From: Branchiostoma floridae
Taxonomy: Eukaryota; Chordata; Leptocardii; Amphioxiformes; Branchiostomatidae
Assembly: GCF_000003815.2 (NCBI RefSeq)
Contig: NC_049986.1
Span: 15,269,811-15,333,810, forward strand
Length of the DNA: 64,000 bases
Direction: 5' to 3'
Shown: one piece after another, positions 2,026-41,312 of the stretch
Layout: each line of letters starts with the position of its first letter
Position numbering within the stretch: the stretch's first letter is position 1
Program-made: the position numbers and the translations under genes
The notes under the pieces: generated by a model
The model's input: the letters and a program-made list of their open reading frames with translations, nothing else
Told to the model about the DNA's origin: nothing
The model's database searches: none

Positions 2026-5000
2026 CTTGGTGTTTTCTTCTTGTCTGAGTCCTTGGAGTTGATGAAAAGTGTCTTCAGTACTTCATCCATTGCCATCTCT
2101 TCCATACTGGATAAAAGATAGAAATAAAATGAAGAAACCAACAACTTAGAGATAAATGTATTCCATAGTAAACCTTGGGAGTGGGCTATGGGAAACGTTC
2201 AAATCAGTGCCTTTTATGTCAGACTCTATGTCTTGTTTTTCCCTATGCCTGGATAGAAGTTTGAGTTCAATGCAAGGCTGTCTCCTGAACCTATCCCTAC
2301 ATCCCGGGATGGAAATTTCTTTGTTGGGACGGAAAAAATTTCACCGTCTGTCCCCAAAAATTTGAACTTCATGACATGGGCTCCCAAACAACTAGTAAGA
2401 CAGAAAAAACTCAAATTCAAAACTGGAGACAGTCCATTGTTGGATGTTCAAAGAGCCATGTTTATACATGTATTATCTCATCTCTGTACTACCTGATGTT
2501 GTTTGTTGCCAGGACCTTCACAAACTCGACCTCCGACGGCAGGAGGAACAGGAGCGCCTGACCCTGCCTGCCGATCCTCGCCGTGCGCCCTGCACGGTGG
2601 ATGTAGTCTGTTGCAGACCCCGGCGTGTTGTACTGTCAAGAGGAAATAAACATCGAGTAAAATAAAATTCAATGTCTTGAAAATGTGTGTGTGCCATTCA
2701 GTTTATGTGCCGCTTACTGCAATCATAATCTTCCACTGGTGGTGAAAAAATATTGTGTAATACTGAACTTGAATTAAGTCAGTTGAAGGCCCTTTTGTGT
2801 TGTACCAATGACCCTAAAATGTTGGAAAAACACTAAGTAAGAGATTCAAGACTTTAACCTCTGGCCGGTTTAATTCTAGAGTATATCATATAAAGAGCTG
2901 CACAATGTAAATATCACACACATATTGATTATTCTTCACGAATCATATCTCCATGTTTATAACAAGCTTAATTTTACATGTTACAGCAGTTAGGAGACAG
3001 CAGGCATGAACTAGGCATGATTTGCAAACAAAGGCATCCAACAGAAGAAACAGCGCCCCCTAGCAGCCCACTGAGGAAGCACATGATGGAAACTTCCGCT
3101 GTTTATACATGTACATGCACCGCAGTCCACTTACCTGAAGAATCCAGCTGACTTTGGGTAAATGGAGACCCCTAGCAGCAACATCCTAAAGTGCAAGTTA
3201 GTGAGAAATAGGAAAATTATTCCTCACACAATTTACACAGTGTGGAACAACTTTCATACATGTATTATGATTGCTTTACATTTATAGTATCGATGCTAGT
3301 GTATCAAGTCTGAAAAGGTGCAAAAAAAGAGAACCAAACCATATTCTTGAACAAAGAGACATACTAGGGTACATAAATATGAGAAACAGTTGGAAATTTG
3401 ATAAACTTGAGTGGGGATAGACTTACTGTACAAAGTAGTACTCCACTTCGAGCCTCTCGAAACTGCTGAAACACTTCTGTTCTCTCCTGAAACATTTCAC
3501 AACAAATACTTAGGGTATGTTGTTTCTTTGACACACAGACACATGCTATTCAGTGTTGTCCTCATACATCTGTCATATATTTATGCTGATGACATGTATA
3601 CAGCACTTTTTGGCATCTAAGGAGTCAAAGACATTTCAAGCACTGTCTTGTTCTCCAACAGATACTTGAACTTTCTTGAAGATTACATGTACAGTCACGC
3701 TTGCGTAATAGTATTCAACTCTGACAAACCCAAACGCGATAGGAACGTGTCAATGTCACATGCATATCGCATTACAGTTTAGCGCCGCCAACAACCAGAA
3801 CGCGTCAAAGTTTCTGGTCTTACCTGCTGTGTCATGTTACCATGAAGCCTGGAGAATGTGATGTCATGTCCACCAAACTCTGCCTCATCATCCTCATCGT
3901 TCAGGACATTCTTCAGTAGATGGTGGTGGAAGTCTACCGAGTCTTGGGTAGACAGAAACACTAACATCTTCTCATGGCTGCCAAACTGGGGATGGAGAAA
4001 AACAATGGTCATTGTTTGATTCTCTTCAAATCCTAAAAGAAAATCTTAATAGTAATTGCATACTAGATGAAATTTTCAAACTCTTATACTTGTCACACTT
4101 TTGCCATAATAACCTGTGTGAATGCATATTTGTACCCTTATATCATAGCCAAAATACTGTTTTTAAACAGAGCATGCTTTCAATCAGACTTTCCACTGTG
4201 CTGCTGGAAAGGATTGCAAAACTTTGGATTAAGCCATAGATGAGAGCTAACTTTACTGGGTTACAGTCATGTCTAGTGGTAAGATAAGCTTTTAAGGAAG
4301 TTAAACTAGATCAGAATACACTTCTATGTACCTTGCATTTCCACAGGATGAAAGCAGCCAGTGTGACCAGTCGTAACTTGCTGGGGACCAGAATGAAGTG
4401 CTGCTTCAGTTCAGCCGGTGTAACAAACCTCTCCTCTGCACTCTTGTCTTCCTCTGAGTTTGTCTGTTGTTTCTCAGAGGGAAGGTCTTTGGTAACAGTG
4501 ATCTTGACTGGATTGTTTAAACTCATGCCTGCAAGTCTCTCCACTCCTGCAAGGGGGCATGACATGTGCGGTGTTAATCATAAAGTTACCCAAGGAGAGA
4601 GATATTTTTGTTCAGAACATGGTGTGATTCATAATGTTACACAGTAAATACAGAGCACAACACATCATAAAATTGGCCAAAGCTATTGACATCATGAAAT
4701 TTCTTATCTCTAAACCCTTACATGTTGGGAAATTACCTTTTCTCAGGTCTACGCTGTACTCTAAGACTTCAAATTATTTTTTTTCTGTATTAATCCAATT
4801 TTCTGGGAAGATGTCCCCCAAACAACTCTGAAAATAAATTTTAAAGTGATATGGTCTGGGAAAGCTTAACAAAAAAAATCCCCCTCACCTTCAGACAGTG
4901 TAGCAGAGAGCAGGACGTTCTGTCTGTCAGTGGAACCTCTCCTATCATTCAGGCCGCTCAGGATGGCACGGATATCCTTCTCAAACCCCATGTCCAGAAG

Positions 5001-30925: not shown

Positions 30926-33900
30926 TTAAAGTTCATCATGCATCTCCAGATGCTTGTACATGAGCCGTTCCAAGGTGGGGTCATGAAACCTGGCCGAGTC
31001 AAAAGGCTGTAATGCGGCCTTAATGTTCTCCTTCAGCAAAGCAATTGTCAGGATACCACCATCATTTGGGACCAGCTTTGACACAATCTGGGTGTGTCAG
31101 AACAACATAATAGGTTAAAAGTTCTTCTGTGTTGGAAGGTATCATTCTGAAAATCTAATCAAGGAATGAAAAATCCACGTCTTCCGAATGATGTCACATT
31201 ATGCAGATGACACACATGACTTAGTGAGTAAACTTTATTCTGTTCACCAAGTCATGTGTTTGTTCTTCTGCATAACATCACAGAAGCTACGGGGAGACAA
31301 CGTGCAGAGGTGACCTGTCACCTGTTTTGTCTCGCCCTCCATTGATATGGAAAGTTCAATAAACAAATAAACAAAGCGGTGGATTGCTCATTTCCTTGAC
31401 AATTATTGAAGTTGAATTTTTGTGTAGGAAATTAAAGTTCAATCTTGCTTCAGAAAGTTAAACAGAACAATATTTCACAAATTGGAGCAAACTTTATCTT
31501 ATCATACGCTAGCATAGCCTGATTAAATCTCGCTTATAGCAGCCCGCCAAACATCCGCCGGCAGGGAGGGGCCAGTTAGAGCCCTGGACAGCGGAGTTTG
31601 TGTTACACAGACTAACGCTAGCACTGTAAAGCCGTTGTGTGACTATATTTTGCTATCAAGTGAATCTTTTTTGGGTTGAGATAAAGTCTCACCTCCTCTG
31701 CCACCTGTGAAGTACCCCCGAGTGTATCCACATACTCCTTCACAAACAGGTCTGTAGGTATCTTCCCGTTATGCTGATGCACCAAAGTCACAAGTAGTGC
31801 CCTATTAGAATGAAAAAGGACAGTTGACACATGATAGAAAGGATAAGAAAGTTAATTTATCTTACTAGTATATGCCAGTGTCATCTATGAGGATATAGAT
31901 ACTGTATATAACGTTACATGTAGTTATCATGATTACACGTAGTGCGGATCACGGCAAGCTGCCGGATCACGGCAAGCTGCCGGATCACGGCAAGCTGCCG
32001 GATCACGGCAAGCTGCCGGATCACGGCAAGCTGCCGGATCACGGCAAGCTGCCGGATCACGGCAAGCTGCCGGATCACGGCAAGCTGCCGGATCACGGCA
32101 AGCTGCCGGATCACGGCAAGCTGCCGGATCACGGCAAGCTGCCGGATCACGGCAAGCTGCCGGATCACGCCGGATCACATTTTCCATTCTAGTCAAATTT
32201 TTCATCAAATGAATGCATTCCTCTTTCTTTCCATCGGATCAATATCAATTCATACATTATTCAGCAAAATCTAGTTTTAATTCTAAAAATGTGAATGATT
32301 GGAACAAGTTCATTTCTGTTATTCTGAAGTTGTTTATGAAGCATCCTGACATAAATTAATCCATAACATAATTATGTTGACAAACACAATGAGAAAATCA
32401 CGATGATAGAAACATTGTGTCTGCCAATGTTTTCATCTTCAATGTTGATGCTAATAGTTAACAGATCTCAGTTCCTCCTTGTGAAGGCCTCACCTTATTC
32501 GCTCCGCCTCTATGTGGCTGTACTCGAACGATTCCATGTCAGACACATCTGTGGGGTCGATGACCAGCATGAGCTCCTTCATCTCCTCTACTGTCAGCGC
32601 CTTCACCTCATCCTTGGTGATGTAACCTCTTCCTTCTGGGTCCACCTTCTTAGCAAACTATATGAACAAACATTTTACACTCTTTACACACCTACAGGGG
32701 GTCTTGTAGACATATCAACGTTACATTCAGATTCTTTACACTCTCACAAGGATTTTTGTAAAGAAACATTCCATCTGGTTGAGAGGGAGTGGAGCAATGG
32801 AGCAGGCATATGCAGTAGATTTCTCCCTTTCCACAGTTTAGGCTTTTAGAGAATCTTAAATTAAGATGTATAGTACCTTAAGATCCTCTGAACCTGAACC
32901 GTACCTTTACCTGATTTTTTGTACCGGTACCCACCCCTAGTGAGTAGCAATTGTTTGATGTAACAACTAGTGACTGCTCAGTGCCTGCAAAGCTGATGTA
33001 TATTCACATAATTATGTGGGTTAATTGCAGTAAGGGAAACACTTTTTTGACATCACTGTATCCTGTTAAGATGACTCGTAAACTGACCTCGCTCCTCATG
33101 TTACTGTAGAGCTCATCCATGGTGTTTATCTGTTCCTGTGTCATTTGAAAGTTCTCTTCAATCTCATCTTTTGCTTCATGTTGACCCTGCGTAAAAAGAA
33201 GACACAACAAGAAATAATGTGGATGTAAACTTCAGTTGAGATTGGTACATATATCCAACACTTTTGTTTGGTCTTTTGCATACTTGACCTGCGAATGTAT
33301 GATGGGTCATTGTTGTCACTGTAGGTGTGATCATACCCCTGTCACATCCACGATCTTCGGGCGTATCGATGGAAGGTTGGCCATAATCAAGATCGACTGA
33401 GGGTTGTGCATATATTTCACCTGAAAACCGTCCCTGTCACATATAAGCCATACTTTGTATCTTGTACAATTGTTGTGCAATAAAGTTATTAGTATAAACG
33501 AGGCTCGGGCGATTGTTGCAGAGTGGTCGTCCGATCGATTTTCACCAAATGTGACAGGGACTACATATAATACAACTTACTGTACATTGACTCACCTTGA
33601 TAAAGTTGTGCACGAAATGTTTGACTGAAATCTTCCCTTCAGAGTCGGCCAGGAGCAACAGGAGCCTCCTGTAGATAATGACACTGGTTGATCATAACAG
33701 ACTACTTTTCGTGATATCAATTCTTCATTCAACAATCACAAAAAATAGAGCAGTTCCTCTATTGATTCAGATTGTTTTTCTCACATGCTCATGTTTTTTT
33801 CAGAGCACACCAGAGCACTGATCCTCACTCTAGTTGATGTGATGCGTACATAATGCTTCTGCAAAGTAACATGGACAATGTGTAGTCCCTGCCAGTAACA

Positions 33901-36900
33901 TTGTTTTATCAATTGGGGTTCATTGGAGCCTCTAATCTCTAGGTTTGTAGAATTTGTATGTGAGGTAAAAGCTTTCCCCTCAAATGTATACATACATGAA
34001 AAATGTAATATATCTATTTCTATATTATGTACTGCAAATAGTACACAACCAAGAGTAAGGTAGTGGCCAACAGATGTTTATTTCATTTTTCATGTTACAA
34101 TTCCTAATGTTCAAAATGCTTAAAACAAGACACTTAATGAAATGTACAATGTGCAAATACAGCATAACAGAAAACTTGACAACAGACATCATCAAAGACA
34201 ATTACATTCGAACATCCTCAAGAACATTCATATTACTGGCTGCTTATTACTGAGAATATAGCTATTCATTGTTGACAATATTTACTCAGTCTAAAGACAT
34301 CAAAAGGTAACAAAGAATAATAATTCTCTATCAAGGTCAGGGTTTTCCCATTCCATGACCAGTTATTTTCTTCCTTCATCTCAACAAATCCATGCAGGAT
34401 TGGACCTTATTTTAATTTTTTTCCTATTCAGACCAATTTTGTATTTCAAGATGACAGATTGTCCATACTTTTGTCGTCACTTGCAACAAGATTTCCCTGA
34501 AATGATGGTATGGCAGATAATGGAGGAAACCCTTGAGAAGAAGATTAAGAAGACAGAAACACAATACTGATTACAATTTTACAGAGGGACCGTTGCTGTG
34601 GGCAGTACTTCTCATCATCAATCACCAGCTAGTTTTCATTAATGTGACAAACATGAAAAACTAAAAAGGGATGATATTTAACATATAGATATGATTATAC
34701 ATTGAGTTAGAAACTGGACTGGAGGGTCCGGAACTTCTTACAGCGATGTATGACTGACTGTACTGGAAGTGAAACTTCACTTGATGCACCTCATAGAGGA
34801 TGACAAATGATGATGATATCATACATTGTATTGAATTAGAAAGTGTGGCACTAATTCAATGTGTTAGGTGTGCACAGTATTAATAAATTGTTCTAGCTAA
34901 ATATTATTCTAAAAACTTTAAGTACAGCTTTAAATACTGCTAACAGAGTACCAAAGGGCAAAGTTTTCTCTAGTCACGCCAAAAAGTAGTTACTCAAGCA
35001 ACTGGATATGGTTTTGGAAACGGTCAAACGTTTCAACTTCTACTCTAGTCAGATTCAGGCATAGAAGTTAAATTTGAGTATAGTGATGGTGCAACTTGTA
35101 GAGACTAACACTAACTGTCCCTGCGCGGTCATGGCAACAGCATGTGGTGACACTATATCTGTAGCGATGTGCCTGATGAATCTGCCAGTCTTGTCAAACA
35201 GCTCCACTCGGTTATACTCTCTGTTTGCCACAATGATGTTACCTGAATGGTCTGCACAGATACCACAGGGAAGCTTCAGGTGACCATCATCTCTGGTCTT
35301 GCATGTCACTCCAGACCGCAGCAGTAACTGTCCATCCTGGCTGAATGCATAGAAACAGTTATTGGCCCAGTCTGAAACGAGAATGTGCCTTCCCGATCCC
35401 TTGTCCACATCGACATACCGCAGGTATTTAGACATCCCTCCCTGCTTTTCACCCAAGGTTCTCACGAATGTCCCATCTGCCCTGAACACCAACACCACCC
35501 CATACGGTTTGGATGGACTTCCTGTGGTTTCTGTAATGAAGACTTGATTTTTCCTGGTGTCCACGGCAACTCCTCTGCCCTGCGTAGTGTACCGTAGGTT
35601 AAGCTTGTTGATCATACCACCCTGTTCGGTGTACAGTACAGCATACTCAGCAGAGTCTGTCCTCCCCACCACCCACACATACCCCATCCCATCAATGGCA
35701 ACATCACCAGGGCACATCTTCTCTCTGTCCGACACGATTGTTGGGAACTGGCGCATGAATATTCCCTCTACAGTGAAGACTTGGATTCTCTGGTTGCAGT
35801 AGTCGGCCACAAAGATACATCCATCATCGGACACTGCAACACCGCTTGGGTCCCTAAACTTCCCTGGTTCTCGTCCCTCTCCACCAAAAGTTATCCTCTG
35901 AGACTGAAGCTCTGACCTGTTGACATGATGACCTGTTGTGCAATGTCTTGCATTGTTTCTCAATGTAACAACAGGCAATGGTGATGGTGAACACTCATGA
36001 TTGGTGACAGCTGCTGTGGCTGGTGTAGAAGAAAGAGACTGGACTGTCACACGTCCCAATAATGGCCTTACGATGTCTGTGGGCTGGAAGAGAGTATGCT
36101 GGGTTTGTACAGGCGTAGGCTCTGATTTTCTTCTGTGCCTTCCTACCACCTCTGTCAAAATGGTTTCCTCACTAAAAGGCCCATCCCCACCCTGCCCCAG
36201 TTCTTTTTCTGCTTGATTACAGGCATCAGACAGTTCTTTTATATCTCCCAATACCCTGTCTCTCTCAGCATTTATCTTCTCAAAGTTTTTCTTGTGATTT
36301 TGTCCAACTTCAGCCAAAAGAAAGCCTTTTCTTAGTTCGAGTTCCTCGTCCAGTTGGTTGTAGGAATCGATGATTCTGCTCCTTGTTTGCTGTTTCTGTG
36401 TATTCAGGGTTCTCTCTGTCTCTCCCAAAATTCTCAGGAAGTTGCAGTAACTCTCCAGAATGTTTCTTCCCTCATTAATCAAGGCTTGGACAGTGGACCT
36501 CCTTTCAGGCTGTATGGTCACCCTGTGAAGCCTTTCACACAGACTTGTAACCAAGTAGTTGTCTGGCAAACCTGCTATCCCCTTGGGCGCCAGCATGACC
36601 TGCTGACGGCAGTTTGGGCACTTGAACGCCCACACTTTCTTTGAATTCCCCACATGGTCCAGGAGGCAACCCTGACAGAAGGTGTGTCCGCATGGCAGCA
36701 CCTTCGGCCTGGTGAACAGCTCCAGGCAGATGCTACAGGACAGTTCTTCACGAATCTGCTCCCCTAAGCTTGACGGTGCAGCTGCCATTTTGTTGTCCCT
36801 TTTAAGCCTGTGACGTGTTCTGCTGTTCCTCCCTGGAAGGCAACATTAGTGACGCAAGCCCTGACCTATTATTGGCAGGTGTGTCCACTCACTTATGACT

Positions 36901-39900
36901 CACATATACCGCACGTCCAATGTTCCTGCCTGTCTACAGCGCAATGGCACATAGTGTGTCCACAGCTGGGCCAGAATTCAATAGATTTTTTGTTAGAACT
37001 TTGCAAGTGTGTCCACCTGTAAATGGTGGTTTTATGCTATGCTTAGTGGCTCCTTCATTTTAGGCATAACTTCAGGAAGTGATTTTACAATTACAGTGCT
37101 GAAAACAGGTTTACTTACATGTACAGTAACTAGTAATGTCATGTGAGGTCAGTGACATCTAGAGACTGTTTACAGAAAGTAACAATAGTGATGTAAGCCC
37201 GCCTATCAGCACCAGGTGTGCCTACTGGCTTGTGATTCACACATACCAGATGTCCAACTTTTCTGCATGTCTGTGATAGCAATGGCACTGTTGGGCCACA
37301 ATAAAACATTCACTGTGCTAAGCCAGAATAAAACGTAATACTCATTTTTTAGAACTTTTATCCTTATTGAGTCTACCTGTGAATGCTCCAGATCTATCAT
37401 GTATATGGTCTCTCTTGTTTAAGACAAAATGCCATGGCATGGCTAGGTAAATACCTTGAGAAACTAATGATGCCTGCAGGGCATTTGGGGCTTGAATACC
37501 CAGCTGCAACCTGTGATTTGCAGACTAAGAGCTTTGCAATATTCAGACTACAGGTTACAAGGTTGTAAGAAATGCACAACAATGTATCATGATGTACAAC
37601 TTTGTGCAGTTTTCTGATGATGTGGTTAATCACCAAATCCAAAGATCAGTTACTTTTTGACCATTTAGTCTTTAATGATGTCAAGGACAAATGGGTGGGA
37701 CCTTCAGTTTGGACAATGAAGCAAACCAGTTTTCAAGGAGACTGTCAATTTTTCTTACCGCAAGGCATGGTCACAATGAAATTGAGGTCAATGACCCTCT
37801 AGCCAAGTAACAGGTGGTCTATCCAAGGAGGTCAAAGTTCAAAAGGTTCCACTGGATTGGATGTGTACTTTGTTTGTTTATTACAATTTACCTCAAATGT
37901 GGATGGGTTGAGAGAACTGGTGTGTCATTAAGTTTAACTGGTGCGCTATGCTACGTGGTAGTATATCAGGCATGCAATACATACAAACAAACTAACTAAA
38001 AACAATCAAAGTGCCTTTTTTGCTCCACCCAGGAAGGAATTATAATGACCTCTGACCTGAGGATGTGAATGTCCATGTGACCTTGGGGGAGGTCACCATG
38101 GCCGCTGTAACGCCACAGCACGTCCACCTGGTCCATGGGCGTGAAGTCGAACTCTTGGTCGCACCCGGTGTTGTCGAACTCCTTCAGACGAGAGATCCAG
38201 ATGGACACAGCGGTGTTGAGGTGGCCGTTCACTCTCACCTGGTGGGGATAGCCTACAGGAAGGAGGGGCAACACTTGCAGTTAGAAATGCAAGGCTTAGG
38301 CTGTAATAACTTACTGAAATGACTCATGTTGTCATCTTGATCATGTAAATAAGAATTATTCATCTTAAAAGCTGAGAACCAAATATGAGCAAATTTGGTA
38401 ATTTCTGACAGGACTAAAGTTTGGTCAAAATTGAAAAGTATAAACTAGAAGATCCTCTTCGAAAGTTTAAAAAAGATGAGTACTGAAGTTAAAAAGGCAA
38501 CCAGGGAGCCCATTAATCTTCACCACTTACTGTCTGCTCCATGCCAGTCTGTAAGTCCTGCTACAGTACCTAGAAACCCACTAGGAGGCTCATTATCTCT
38601 CTTAATCTTTCTGACAGGTATACCCACCCACCTATCATGAAGATCCTACAACAGCTTCTTGAGTTATACTGCTTACATAAACAAACAAAAGCACCTTGCC
38701 TGCTGGCCTCAAACAAACAGCACCAGGAACATAAAACAGCGAGCAGATCATATGATTGAACTGGGCAGAGCACTTTGGAGCCTTTTGCAGTTTAAACTTA
38801 CATAAATGATATTTTGTGAGAAACTTCTCTGGTACTCAACGGATCAAAATGACTACCAGCAGGGTTCTTCATAATTTGTGGAAATAAAAAAATCTTGAGA
38901 TGTATAACAAAGATCTTGAGACTTAATGTTAAATCTTGAGATATTTTGACTTGATCTTGAAATGCTTTGACTTGATCTTGAGATGTTTTGACTTGATCTT
39001 GAAATGCCTTAGAAAAATACAGAAGATGCTTTGCAAAAATCTTAAGATAGTTTGAAAGTTGCTTTGAAAAAGTCCCATGTCTTGAGATGTATAAGAAAAA
39101 ATCTTGAGATCATTAAAAAAATCTCAAGATTATTGTGAAAAATCTCAAGATTGTCTCAAAACATCTGGAGATTGACCACAAAATCTTGAGTTAAAAAAAA
39201 ATTTCAATGAGGTGTGAAGACTCCCACTAGGGGATATTATGATCTACTGTGTAACTGAGGAAAGGATTTTGAAAAATATTAGATGTTTATCTTTAAGCTG
39301 TAAACAGTCACAAGCATTAGTCCAAAATGTCCTGAAAGTCCAACAATGATCTGCTTGCTGTTATAACCTTATTGGCAATGGTGATAACATGAGGTAAAAC
39401 TTTAAGGACTTGCCTCCAGGTACAAAGATACAGTCTCCCTTGTCCATGGTGATGCGAGCAAAGCGGACATCCTGGACCTTGGGGAACTCTAACATGTCCA
39501 CGCGGTCAACATCGATCTCCGAGAACCCTCCCCACTCGTACCTCGACTCTTCCGCAAAGTACAGCAAGTCACTCTGGAGAATAGAGAGAAATGGATGGAA
39601 CACTACAATGCAGAATCCGAACTTCCATTAATAAACCTTCAAGTTTTCCTATCTGTGGAGTCATTCAAAAATGAACAGCTATGGCAATGACAGCAGGGCT
39701 GTCTCCAGGACCCATTCCTCCATCCCAGGACAGAAATTTGCTTCTTGGAACGGACTAAGATGTCATCTTTTCCTCCCGAAATGATGAACTCCATAGCATG
39801 AAACTGCTTAAAATACATTTTTCTAAGTATAAATTGACAGTTTACACAACGAAATTCAAAGTGGCAGGAATGATGGTCAGTACCTGGCTGGGATCTATCA

Positions 39901-41312
39901 GAATCCAGTCCTTGGTACCATTAAACAGACAGTGGAAGGTGCTGTATGGGTCCCTGTGCACCTTGGTCATTCCTCCTGCTGCTGTCAGGAACAGATGAGT
40001 CTCCTAAAAAAAGTTGTTCAATAATAAAACACAGCTCTGACAAAATTAATTGGGTCTGTTATAATTTGCTATATAGGCCAATACAGCACTACTTATGTAC
40101 ATACTAGCCTTACTAATAGTAACTCATAAAGTAAGACTTATGGTGTTCTTTAATCACTCACTCACTCACTTGCTCACTGTCATTCATTCACTCACTCACT
40201 CTTTTACTCACTCACATGCTCCCTTGCTCACACATACTCATCGAACACTTAACGTTATACAGAAATATTTATTGACACGACAAAAGTACAGCGACTTTTG
40301 TAAGGTCTTATAATAGCAACTACTTAAAGTACATATAAACAGACATATATGAATACATGTATCTATAGAAATGAATAAGTCAACATGTTGAGTTACATAA
40401 GACAGATAGAAAGAAAGAAGAAACATGGCTTCACCTGGATGCCCTGTGCGATACTGCCACACCTGAGGCAGGGTGGGACAGCGACATCCCTCTCCATGGG
40501 ACGGGGGATCTGTGAGATCACGTACGCGTCCATCGTCTCGAAGTTCTGCATGAAGTGAGCGACCGTGTCCCTTCCAAGGCCCCCCTCCCCTGCAGGGATC
40601 TTGCCGTTACCCTCGCTTCGTGCCTCCAGTCGTACGGTGAGGTTGCCGTACTCGCGGATGAGGTACTCTGGCGTCCACAGAGAGTACGCACGTGAGGGCT
40701 TCGCTGCTCCCCTCAGCAGGACAGGCTTGTTTGGTTTGACGAATTTGTCGAAAAACTCCTGGGGTTGCGGGACTGTCATAGTGGTGGATGGCAAGAAAAG
40801 ACAATTTGTTTATGAACAATTGTGGAAAGTATCAATTTACAGAAGAGGTTTCGGGTCGTGGAACTCAACACTAAATTATCTACTGTTTCTTCCAATTTTG
40901 CCCTCCCCATGACCTACATGTAACGTTAGATAATTATTCTTTTTCGTGGACTAAAACTTGGTTAGCACAAAGTATGGTATCCAGTGTCCACAATGTGATA
41001 TCATGTTGGCTTCATGGATAAAACTAAAAGTTACTTTGCTTGTTATCCAAAACACTAGTTTAGCTGTCATCTTTTTATAAAGATCCTAGAGAGTGACTAT
41101 TAAAGAAGCCTGGTCACGAAGAAAAATCTAGTCCAACCTGTGAACATCTCGTCGATGGTTTCTGTCGCTTCTGCGTGAGATCCGAAGATTTCTAAGTGTC
41201 CCCTGGGACTTCCACAAGGGACATCTTTAGAGCATGAGTTCTGCTGTACAGCTGATGAAGAAATGGTCACCAAAGCTGTCAAGAAAAGCGCTACGCTGCA
41301 AGAACCCTTCAT
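30926..41312 (-). CDS. ER-luminal JmjC oxygenase with EF-hand region and HDEL tail
   Basis: Ten in-phase exons: 41138-41312, 40435-40772, 39884-40003, 39414-39573, 38057-38252, 33596-33668, 33088-33186, 32494-32657, 31693-31801, 30926-31087; 531 residues. Exon 1 gives a signal peptide (MKGSCSVALFLTALVTISSS). Residues 60-300 form a JmjC/cupin domain: the iron ligands look like H187-R-D189 in exon 3 (TKVHRD) and H268 in exon 5 (GGYPHQV); a 2-oxoglutarate-type block FNGTKDWILIDP is present. After it come EF-hand-like helices with one canonical 12-residue loop at about 393-404 (DPEGRGYITKDE). The chain ends MHDEL, an HDEL-type ER-retrieval signal. Predicted role: Fe(II)/2-oxoglutarate hydroxylase in the ER lumen, possibly Ca-responsive; substrate unknown. 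The intron after exon 4 uses a GC donor. Intron 5 contains a complete intronless RING-NHL gene. Without that long splice, exon 5 would run to a stop near 37996. Confidence 0.85.
31505..31614 (-). repeat. Dispersed repeat family B, copy 1
   Basis: About 110 bp in an intron of the JmjC gene. Its reverse complement matches 59747-59857, sharing CTGCTGTCCAGGGCT, AACTGGCCCC, GGCTGCTATAAG and GAGATTTAATCAGGCTA. Ends resemble inverted TAGYCTG termini, so it may be a short MITE. Confidence 0.7.
31945..32169. repeat. Perfect 18-bp minisatellite, 12.5 copies
   Basis: Twelve identical tandem copies of CGGATCACGGCAAGCTGC (31945-32160) plus a half copy, in the intron between JmjC exons 8 and 9. As 18 is divisible by 3 and the unit lacks stops, several frames on both strands stay open and give spurious repeat proteins. 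Confidence 0.97.
33337..33559. mobile_element. Possible MITE with CCCTGTCACAT ends
   Basis: CCCTGTCACAT at 33337-33347 and its exact complement at 33549-33559 bracket about 220 bp, with a third internal copy of the motif near 33426. It lies in an intron of the JmjC gene. The evidence is limited to the short terminal repeat. Confidence 0.4.
35055..36788 (-). CDS. Intronless RING-NHL (TRIM-like) E3 ligase candidate, nested gene
   Basis: 577 residues in one frame, ATG at 36788. Residues 18-61 form a C3HC4 RING: CSIC, then CGHTFCQGC, then CPNC, with the usual TRIM-type start EELSCSICLELFTRPKVLPCGH. There is no B-box. A coiled coil follows at about 110-205 (Glu/Lys/Leu-rich). A low-complexity linker leads to a six-bladed NHL propeller from about 300 to 575 (SGVAVSDDGCIFVADYCNQRI, PHAVAMTAQGQLVLVS). 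Expected role: ubiquitin ligase using the propeller for RNA or protein binding, as in TRIM2/3/71-type proteins. It sits entirely inside intron 5 of the JmjC gene, on the same strand, and lacks introns, which fits insertion by retroposition. It is a paralogue of the NHL gene at 27110-28927. Confidence 0.92.
   Translation of the reverse strand: MAAAPSSLGEQIREELSCSICLELFTRPKVLPCGHTFCQGCLLDHVGNSKKVWAFKCPNCRQQVMLAPKGIAGLPDNYLVTSLCERLHRVTIQPERRSTVQALINEGRNILESYCNFLRILGETERTLNTQKQQTRSRIIDSYNQLDEELELRKGFLLAEVGQNHKKNFEKINAERDRVLGDIKELSDACNQAEKELGQGGDGPFSEETILTEVVGRHRRKSEPTPVQTQHTLFQPTDIVRPLLGRVTVQSLSSTPATAAVTNHECSPSPLPVVTLRNNARHCTTGHHVNRSELQSQRITFGGEGREPGKFRDPSGVAVSDDGCIFVADYCNQRIQVFTVEGIFMRQFPTIVSDREKMCPGDVAIDGMGYVWVVGRTDSAEYAVLYTEQGGMINKLNLRYTTQGRGVAVDTRKNQVFITETTGSPSKPYGVVLVFRADGTFVRTLGEKQGGMSKYLRYVDVDKGSGRHILVSDWANNCFYAFSQDGQLLLRSGVTCKTRDDGHLKLPCGICADHSGNIIVANREYNRVELFDKTGRFIRHIATDIVSPHAVAMTAQGQLVLVSTSCTITILKFNFYA
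38885..39195. repeat. Array of ATCTTGAGAT decamers switching orientation
   Basis: Between JmjC exons 4 and 5. From 38892 to about 39105 the motif ATCTTGAGAT and variants recur about every 20-40 bp (unit TTTGACTTGATCTTGAGATG). From about 39115 the reverse complement ATCTCAAGAT appears instead. The region can fold into a long hairpin. Confidence 0.7.
39692..39800 (+). repeat. Dispersed repeat family A, copy 2
   Basis: Matches the segment at 2273-2395 (GGGCTGTCTCC, CATCCCAGGACAGAAATTTG, TTGGAACGGA, GAACTCCATAGCATG). It lies in a JmjC intron. Confidence 0.55.
40153..40232. repeat. CACT/TCAC microsatellite
   Basis: Interrupted tetranucleotide run (CACTCACTCACT with TTGCTCACTG interruptions) in a JmjC intron. 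Confidence 0.85.

Follow-up and report, generated by a model that had tools for sequence, protein, structure and literature searches.

The window is the whole stretch of 64,000 nucleotides analyzed here (C8:15269811-15333810). On its minus strand, from 41312 to 30926, it contains a gene of 10 exons, whose coding sequence of 1596 nt encodes 531 amino acids followed by a stop codon (Table 1). The gene model was rebuilt from the minus strand, and its reading frame is open across all nine junctions. Acceptors are AG in 9 of 9 cases. Eight of the nine donors are GT, and the remaining one, after exon 4 at 39413, is GC. A sequence-only reading of this DNA had given the same ten exons, with exon 5 joined to exon 6 (38057/33668), and had located HRD at residues 187-189, a histidine at 268 and HDEL at the C-terminus. 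The rebuild in phase showed the exon coordinates and this junction to be correct, and a check of the residues found the motifs at those positions.

Table 1. Exons of the JmjC gene and neighboring features of the window.
Feature	Position	Strand	Content
Exon 1	41312-41138	-	Start codon and signal-like peptide, residues 1 to ~21 (41312-41250)
Exon 2	40772-40435	-	N-terminal portion, Cupin_8/JmjC domain (Pfam)
Exon 3	40003-39884	-	H187-R-D189 (39958-39950); 2OG-lysine candidate K202 (39913-39911)
Exon 4	39573-39414	-	JmjC domain; GC donor after
Exon 5	38252-38057	-	Distal metal ligand H268 (38244-38242); JmjC domain end and linker
Intron 5 ORF	36845-35055	-	TRIM-like uninterrupted ORF of 596 codons from stop to stop, with a RING finger and an NHL repeat
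Exon 6	33668-33596	-	Degenerate EF-like loop no. 1, LADSEGKIS (inspection)
Exon 7	33186-33088	-	Acidic linker before EF-hand (alignment with C14 paralog)
Exon 8	32657-32494	-	Best EF-hand loop, residues 393-404, DPEGRGYITKDE (32642-32607)
Intron 8 repeat	31945-32169		Perfect 18-bp tandem repeat, 12.5 units; the repetition keeps three forward frames open
Exon 9	31801-31693	-	Degenerate EF-like loop VHQHNGKIP; C14 counterpart keeps DADSD
Exon 10	31087-30926	-	Degenerate EF-like loop LVPNDGGIL; HDEL (30940-30929); stop
Downstream ORF	28954-27110	-	Uninterrupted ORF just downstream of the JmjC gene, 614 codons stop to stop; NHL repeat, and Ser/Arg-rich repeats near its N-terminus

Three long ORFs of the window, of which two encode NHL proteins, served to train a codon score, and this score placed the intended frame at the top of the three forward frames in all ten exons. 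A reverse-strand frame scored above the intended frame in exon 1 (9.5 vs 5.6) and exon 5 (19.8 vs 19.2), and thus the codon-score test alone is modest for these two. Judged from its sequence, the window locus is a real gene. A second copy inside the window was not found by tblastn, where the remaining matches have E > 2. Rfam at gathering thresholds returned no match in the window, and ARAGORN found no tRNA genes in it.

Predicted catalytic domain

The Pfam search of the 531-residue model, which the sequence-only reading had suggested as a check, found a JmjC-type domain. Residues 62-283 match Cupin_8 (PF13621) with an E-value of 3.4e-35 (122.6 bits vs cut-off 27.4), and weaker JmjC models overlap this match. 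For the window protein, Pfam returned Cupin_8/JmjC models and no prolyl-hydroxylase families. H187, D189 and H268, which we take from JMJD5 and FIH to be the metal triad, and K202, presumably the lysine that binds 2OG, are conserved in all five aligned family members, whose pairwise identity ranges from 29 to 77%. The intact residues and the JmjC/Cupin_8 domain support the claim of an Fe(II)/2OG oxygenase.

Among solved structures, phmmer with the window protein found JMJD5/KDM8 as the best match (E 7e-15), and the next matches were a GH14974p chain (4.7e-11), JMJD7, and FIH. A profile built from five family members (A2) also placed JMJD5 at the top of the list (E 4e-25), with JMJD7 at 1e-15. 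In PHROGs, one weak match to a family of unknown function was observed (residues 164-270, E 2.4e-4), and the search of viral contigs confirmed no relative. A 59-aa query against prokaryote genomes did not confirm any relative, and a two-row query found two distant Cupin_8 proteins, from Winogradskyella and a Planctomycetales MAG, at 23-24%.

Related loci in the same genome

The genome searched comprises 513,431,437 bases in 431 contigs, and the search for Cupin_8 gave 41 matches. By sequence match, the family considered here comprises nine loci of the window type and, besides these, sister loci with EF-like loops; a -EL tail is readable at seven of the nine.

Three paralogous loci contain uninterrupted ORFs: 435 aa on C3, 434 aa on C4, and 479 aa from TTG, or 438 aa from the first ATG, on C1. 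In each of them, a hydrophobic N-terminus, the JmjC domain and the EF-hand region share one frame, and the tails of C3, C4 and C1 are RDEL, RDEL and HDEL, respectively. By tblastn, these ORFs are 30-31% identical to residues 34-423 of the window model. Overall, pairwise dN/dS among the three is 0.16-0.19; by region, it amounts to 0.31-0.42 for the N-terminal part, 0.09-0.13 for the JmjC domain and 0.16-0.18 for the C-terminal part. These ratios are rough due to the high dS (0.85-1.58 overall). On these ratios, both halves of the proteins look maintained under purifying selection. The three ORFs look like processed copies of a spliced message, and if so, they would be evidence for the splicing of JmjC and EF exons into one mRNA. 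On C11, a relative with several exons matches the C3 ORF at 55-69% in six of eight exon matches and at 42-46% in the two C-terminal ones. Its coding sequence ends with ...KDHDHSHDEL-stop.

Another multi-exon relative was modeled on C14 (C14:9047838-9056663). It has nine exons and encodes 552 aa, with a hydrophobic start, the same JmjC residues and an HGEL end. Its identity to the window protein is 45% in one JmjC exon and 36% across the full alignment. Where its junctions correspond to those of window exons 5-10, the intron phases are 2,0,0,2,0, the same as those of the window gene, with the exon boundaries chosen by hand and the window gene as guide. The upstream structure differs; exon 2 of the C14 model spans the counterpart of window exons 2 to 4. 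A tandem array of 49-bp units in 11 copies is present at C14:9051805-9052336 (L032 3506-4037). It begins in the end of the sixth exon and repeats the splice-donor region of that exon.

On C12, at least three JmjC copies related to the window gene lie on both strands of C12:12638663-12704408, with exon matches 30-59% identical. The copy at 12.70 Mb has a signal-like start (MDPVWKFVVLLAVCGSVTG) and an ORF ending with HTEL. The window gene is a member of a same-genome family rather than a single odd gene, and the finding is somewhat bigger than the sequence-only reading saw.

Signal-like start and C-terminal tail

In the window protein, the hydropathy over 10 residues reaches its maximum, 2.51, at residue 8, and inspection places a putative signal cleavage between SSSA and VQQ. 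Hydropathy and inspection indicated a signal-like N-terminal segment in the window protein and four paralogs. All six frames of the window together contain 6707 stop codons, and HDEL is the sole [HKRQ][DE]E[LIF] tail before any of them. Occurrence of HDEL by chance is rejected. Four relatives end with HDEL or RDEL. The two N-x-S/T sites (102 and 199) and the eight cysteines, seven of them past the likely signal peptide, are compatible with a luminal protein and no proof of it.

The C-terminus was checked at eight loci of the window type: the window, C1, C3, C4, C11, C12 at 12.70 Mb, C12 at 12.66 Mb, and C14. A readable -EL tail is present at seven of the eight: HDEL in three, RDEL in two, HTEL in one and HGEL in one. 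The C12 copy at 12.66 Mb has no readable -EL end within the 2.5 kb examined. HGEL is outside the usual [KRHQ][DE]EL, and the C14 tail was found with a widened pattern only. Tails that are otherwise unalignable yet end with -DEL are most simply explained by selection for the tail itself. As a prediction, ER-lumen residence is supported by the signal-like peptide and HDEL, and by the repetition of this layout in paralogs of the same genome.

Tails were also searched in 15 stretches around other JmjC matches. Six candidates were found in five of them, and none in the other ten. Two of the six, at 8.39 Mb on C8 and 14.83 Mb on C9, end with HQEL and have no internal stops. The other four were taken for chance, and three of these run through stops. 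The HQEL-ending ORF at 8.39 Mb (L027 7761-7946, +) lies downstream of the JmjC locus on the same strand. The one at 14.83 Mb (L026 ~2559-3836, -) is also downstream on the same strand and contains a long KETKDDASKSKVS-type repeat; an EF-like stretch, FDGLDDSGNFVFDYDD, is present between the JmjC locus and this ORF. At the sister copy near 7.55 Mb on C8, an ORF ending with HDDL was observed.

EF-hand region

By inspection, the C-terminal ~200 residues of the window protein contain four loops of EF-hand shape. The loop at 393-404 is the only one with acidic ligands at positions 1, 3 and 12; Arg occupies position 5 in it. The EF-hand signals of the window protein alone are sub-threshold, with the best Pfam E-value at 0.04, and the C-terminal half alone returned nothing significant against PDB sequences (best E 0.17). 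The paralogs on C1 and C14 do not have Glu at position 12 in the loop aligned to DPEGRGYITKDE.

In the C4 paralog, Pfam EF-hand_7 is matched with an E-value of 2.9e-6 (28.0 bits vs cut-off 30), and the five-member A2 profile matches calmodulin EF-hands at ~7e-4. The C14 protein has four EF-like loops, of which DADSDRLELEAF and DPENKGYANKDD are richer in acidic ligands than those of the window protein. Downstream of sister JmjC loci (C8 near 7.55 Mb, C18 and C19), there are exons with EF loops, for example DTNGDGQLSVEE. Two sister-locus fragments were scanned; one is over the Pfam EF-hand_5 cut-off (E 4.4e-7) and one is below. Loops with canonical residues in the sister group are located at L015 7414-8381, L023 4299-4463, and L013 (minus strand).

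These matches support, at the family level, that the C-terminal region is EF-hand-derived. Judging from its loops, calcium binding by the window copy is doubtful, and probably either weak or confined to a single loop. The sequence-only reading described an EF-hand loop and predicted a calcium-linked enzyme. The derivation from EF-hands holds on the paralogs and the A2 profile, whereas the link to calcium is not established because three of the four loops are degenerate. Of what was claimed there, regulation by calcium is the weakest point.

Proposed function and alternative explanations

The best explanation for the whole is that one gene encodes a protein that is imported into the ER, hydroxylates with 2OG, carries an EF module and is retrieved by HDEL, and that it belongs to a JMJD5-like family of the secretory pathway. 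We consider this explanation likely. The predicted signal peptide would bring the protein into the ER. The double-stranded beta-helix would bind Fe(II) via H187, D189 and H268, and 2OG via K202, and side chains of proteins passing the ER may be hydroxylated. Arg or Lys is the best guess for the substrate residue, given that JMJD5 and JMJD7 are the closest relatives of solved structure. The EF-hand-type domain after the catalytic domain may be a structural or regulatory module. From what is established for this signal, HDEL would be recognized by the KDEL receptor, and the protein would be returned to the ER.

Two alternatives concern the gene itself. Intron 5 is 4388 bp and contains the independent RING/NHL ORF on the same strand, and the frame of exon 5 stays open shortly past the donor, to a stop at 37996. 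The model could be a paper fusion of two genes, one for a secreted JmjC protein with its end near 37996, the other for the EF-hand region and HDEL. This is extremely unlikely. Upstream of exon 6, there is no in-frame ATG before a stop. None of the 27 ATG frames of 25 codons or more in intron 5 has a signal-like start and a phase-2 donor for exons 6-10, and with these thresholds HDEL would thus be pointless on a separate EF gene. The C1, C3 and C4 ORFs keep both halves in one frame, and the C14 model has equal intron phases through the JmjC/EF boundary. The three one-frame paralogs and the C14 phases answer the worry, and two separate genes are rejected; with the missing alternative start, they bear out the single gene proposed by the sequence-only reading. 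It is also very unlikely that the window gene is a decaying or untranscribed duplicate. Its EF loops are degenerate relative to those of C14 and its introns contain tandem repeats, but the 531 codons have neither stop nor frameshift, and the splice sites, active-site residues and HDEL are intact.

The other alternatives concern what the protein does. Inactive members occur in ER enzyme families, and the JmjC fold could serve as a chaperone or binding module of a pseudo-enzyme in the ER. This is improbable, as all five aligned members retain both His, the Asp and the lysine for 2OG despite their divergence, and dN/dS of the JmjC domain is 0.09-0.13 in the uninterrupted C1/C3/C4 trio. The EF-hand domain could instead be a true luminal calcium sensor which switches hydroxylase activity, as suggested for P4H-TM. 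The EF-hand homology of the family (the C4 paralog and the A2 profile), the single near-complete loop in the window protein, the canonical loop over the EF-hand_5 cut-off at a sister locus, and the precedent of P4H-TM, with its Kd of 23 uM in the available text of PMC7948501, all point to this. On the other side, ligand 1 is missing from three of the four window loops, Arg occupies position 5 of the best one, and its counterparts on C1 and C14 have no Glu at position 12. A calcium switch is possible but rather doubtful. Beyond the likely explanation of a JMJD5-like, ER-retrieved hydroxylase, these loci may represent a hitherto undescribed family, in animals, of JmjC hydroxylases that are retained in the ER, act on secretory or matrix proteins and have their activity tuned by luminal calcium; this wider proposal is tentative. 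If true, it would mean an oxygen-, 2OG- and calcium-sensing step with a JmjC fold in the secretory pathway. The paralogs with uninterrupted ORFs should be simple to express, and the activity, substrate and calcium dependence are thus directly testable.

Comparison with known systems

JmjC oxygenases have been studied mostly as nuclear or cytosolic enzymes, and JMJD8 was the single ER-lumen example found in the literature searched. JMJD5/KDM8 is 26% identical to the window protein over the domain, and the HxD...K...H positions of the two align. With the solved JMJD5 constructs, the match is confined to the JmjC domain, and neither a signal peptide nor EF-hands or HDEL are known to us in JMJD5. 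The CREC proteins (reticulocalbin and calumenin), as far as the available source text describes them, are like the window protein in that they are EF-hand proteins of the secretory pathway. CREC proteins have HDEL tails, and to our knowledge they contain no oxygenase domain.

According to the available text, JMJD8 is the first JmjC protein reported in the ER lumen, via a signal peptide (PMC5684140), and its JmjC domain is accompanied by no other recognizable domain (PMC9434538). ER-lumen residence of a JmjC protein therefore has a precedent in the available account of JMJD8 (PMC5684140). Both proteins have the JmjC domain; JMJD8 is in the ER lumen, and the window protein is predicted there. 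Unlike JMJD8 as so described, the window protein has the EF-hand-type C-terminal region and the HDEL tail, and the words KDEL and EF-hand are absent from the available text of PMC5684140. The identity of the window gene as the lancelet JMJD8 was rejected on domain content, not on a tree.

P4H-TM is a vertebrate Fe(II)/2OG hydroxylase of the ER lumen with a calcium-binding EF domain, in the available text of PMC7948501. Like the window protein as predicted, it combines a 2OG hydroxylase of the ER lumen with an EF domain, and an ER-retention signal stands at its C-terminus (PMC7948501). As that text describes it, P4H-TM differs in its catalytic family, which is of the prolyl-4-hydroxylase type, and in its membrane anchor. 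The EF domain is inserted in the catalytic domain in P4H-TM, whereas it is C-terminal in the window protein.

In the literature searched, to which subscription papers mostly do not belong, no JmjC protein with EF-hands or a KDEL-type tail was recognized. Orthologs may well exist in database records. In the window protein, known parts are combined in a new way, and it does not represent a new type of system. A multi-gene JmjC family whose members carry retrieval signals and EF-hands would bring JmjC chemistry to the secretory pathway, and would form a parallel to P4H-TM, whose catalytic family is unrelated.
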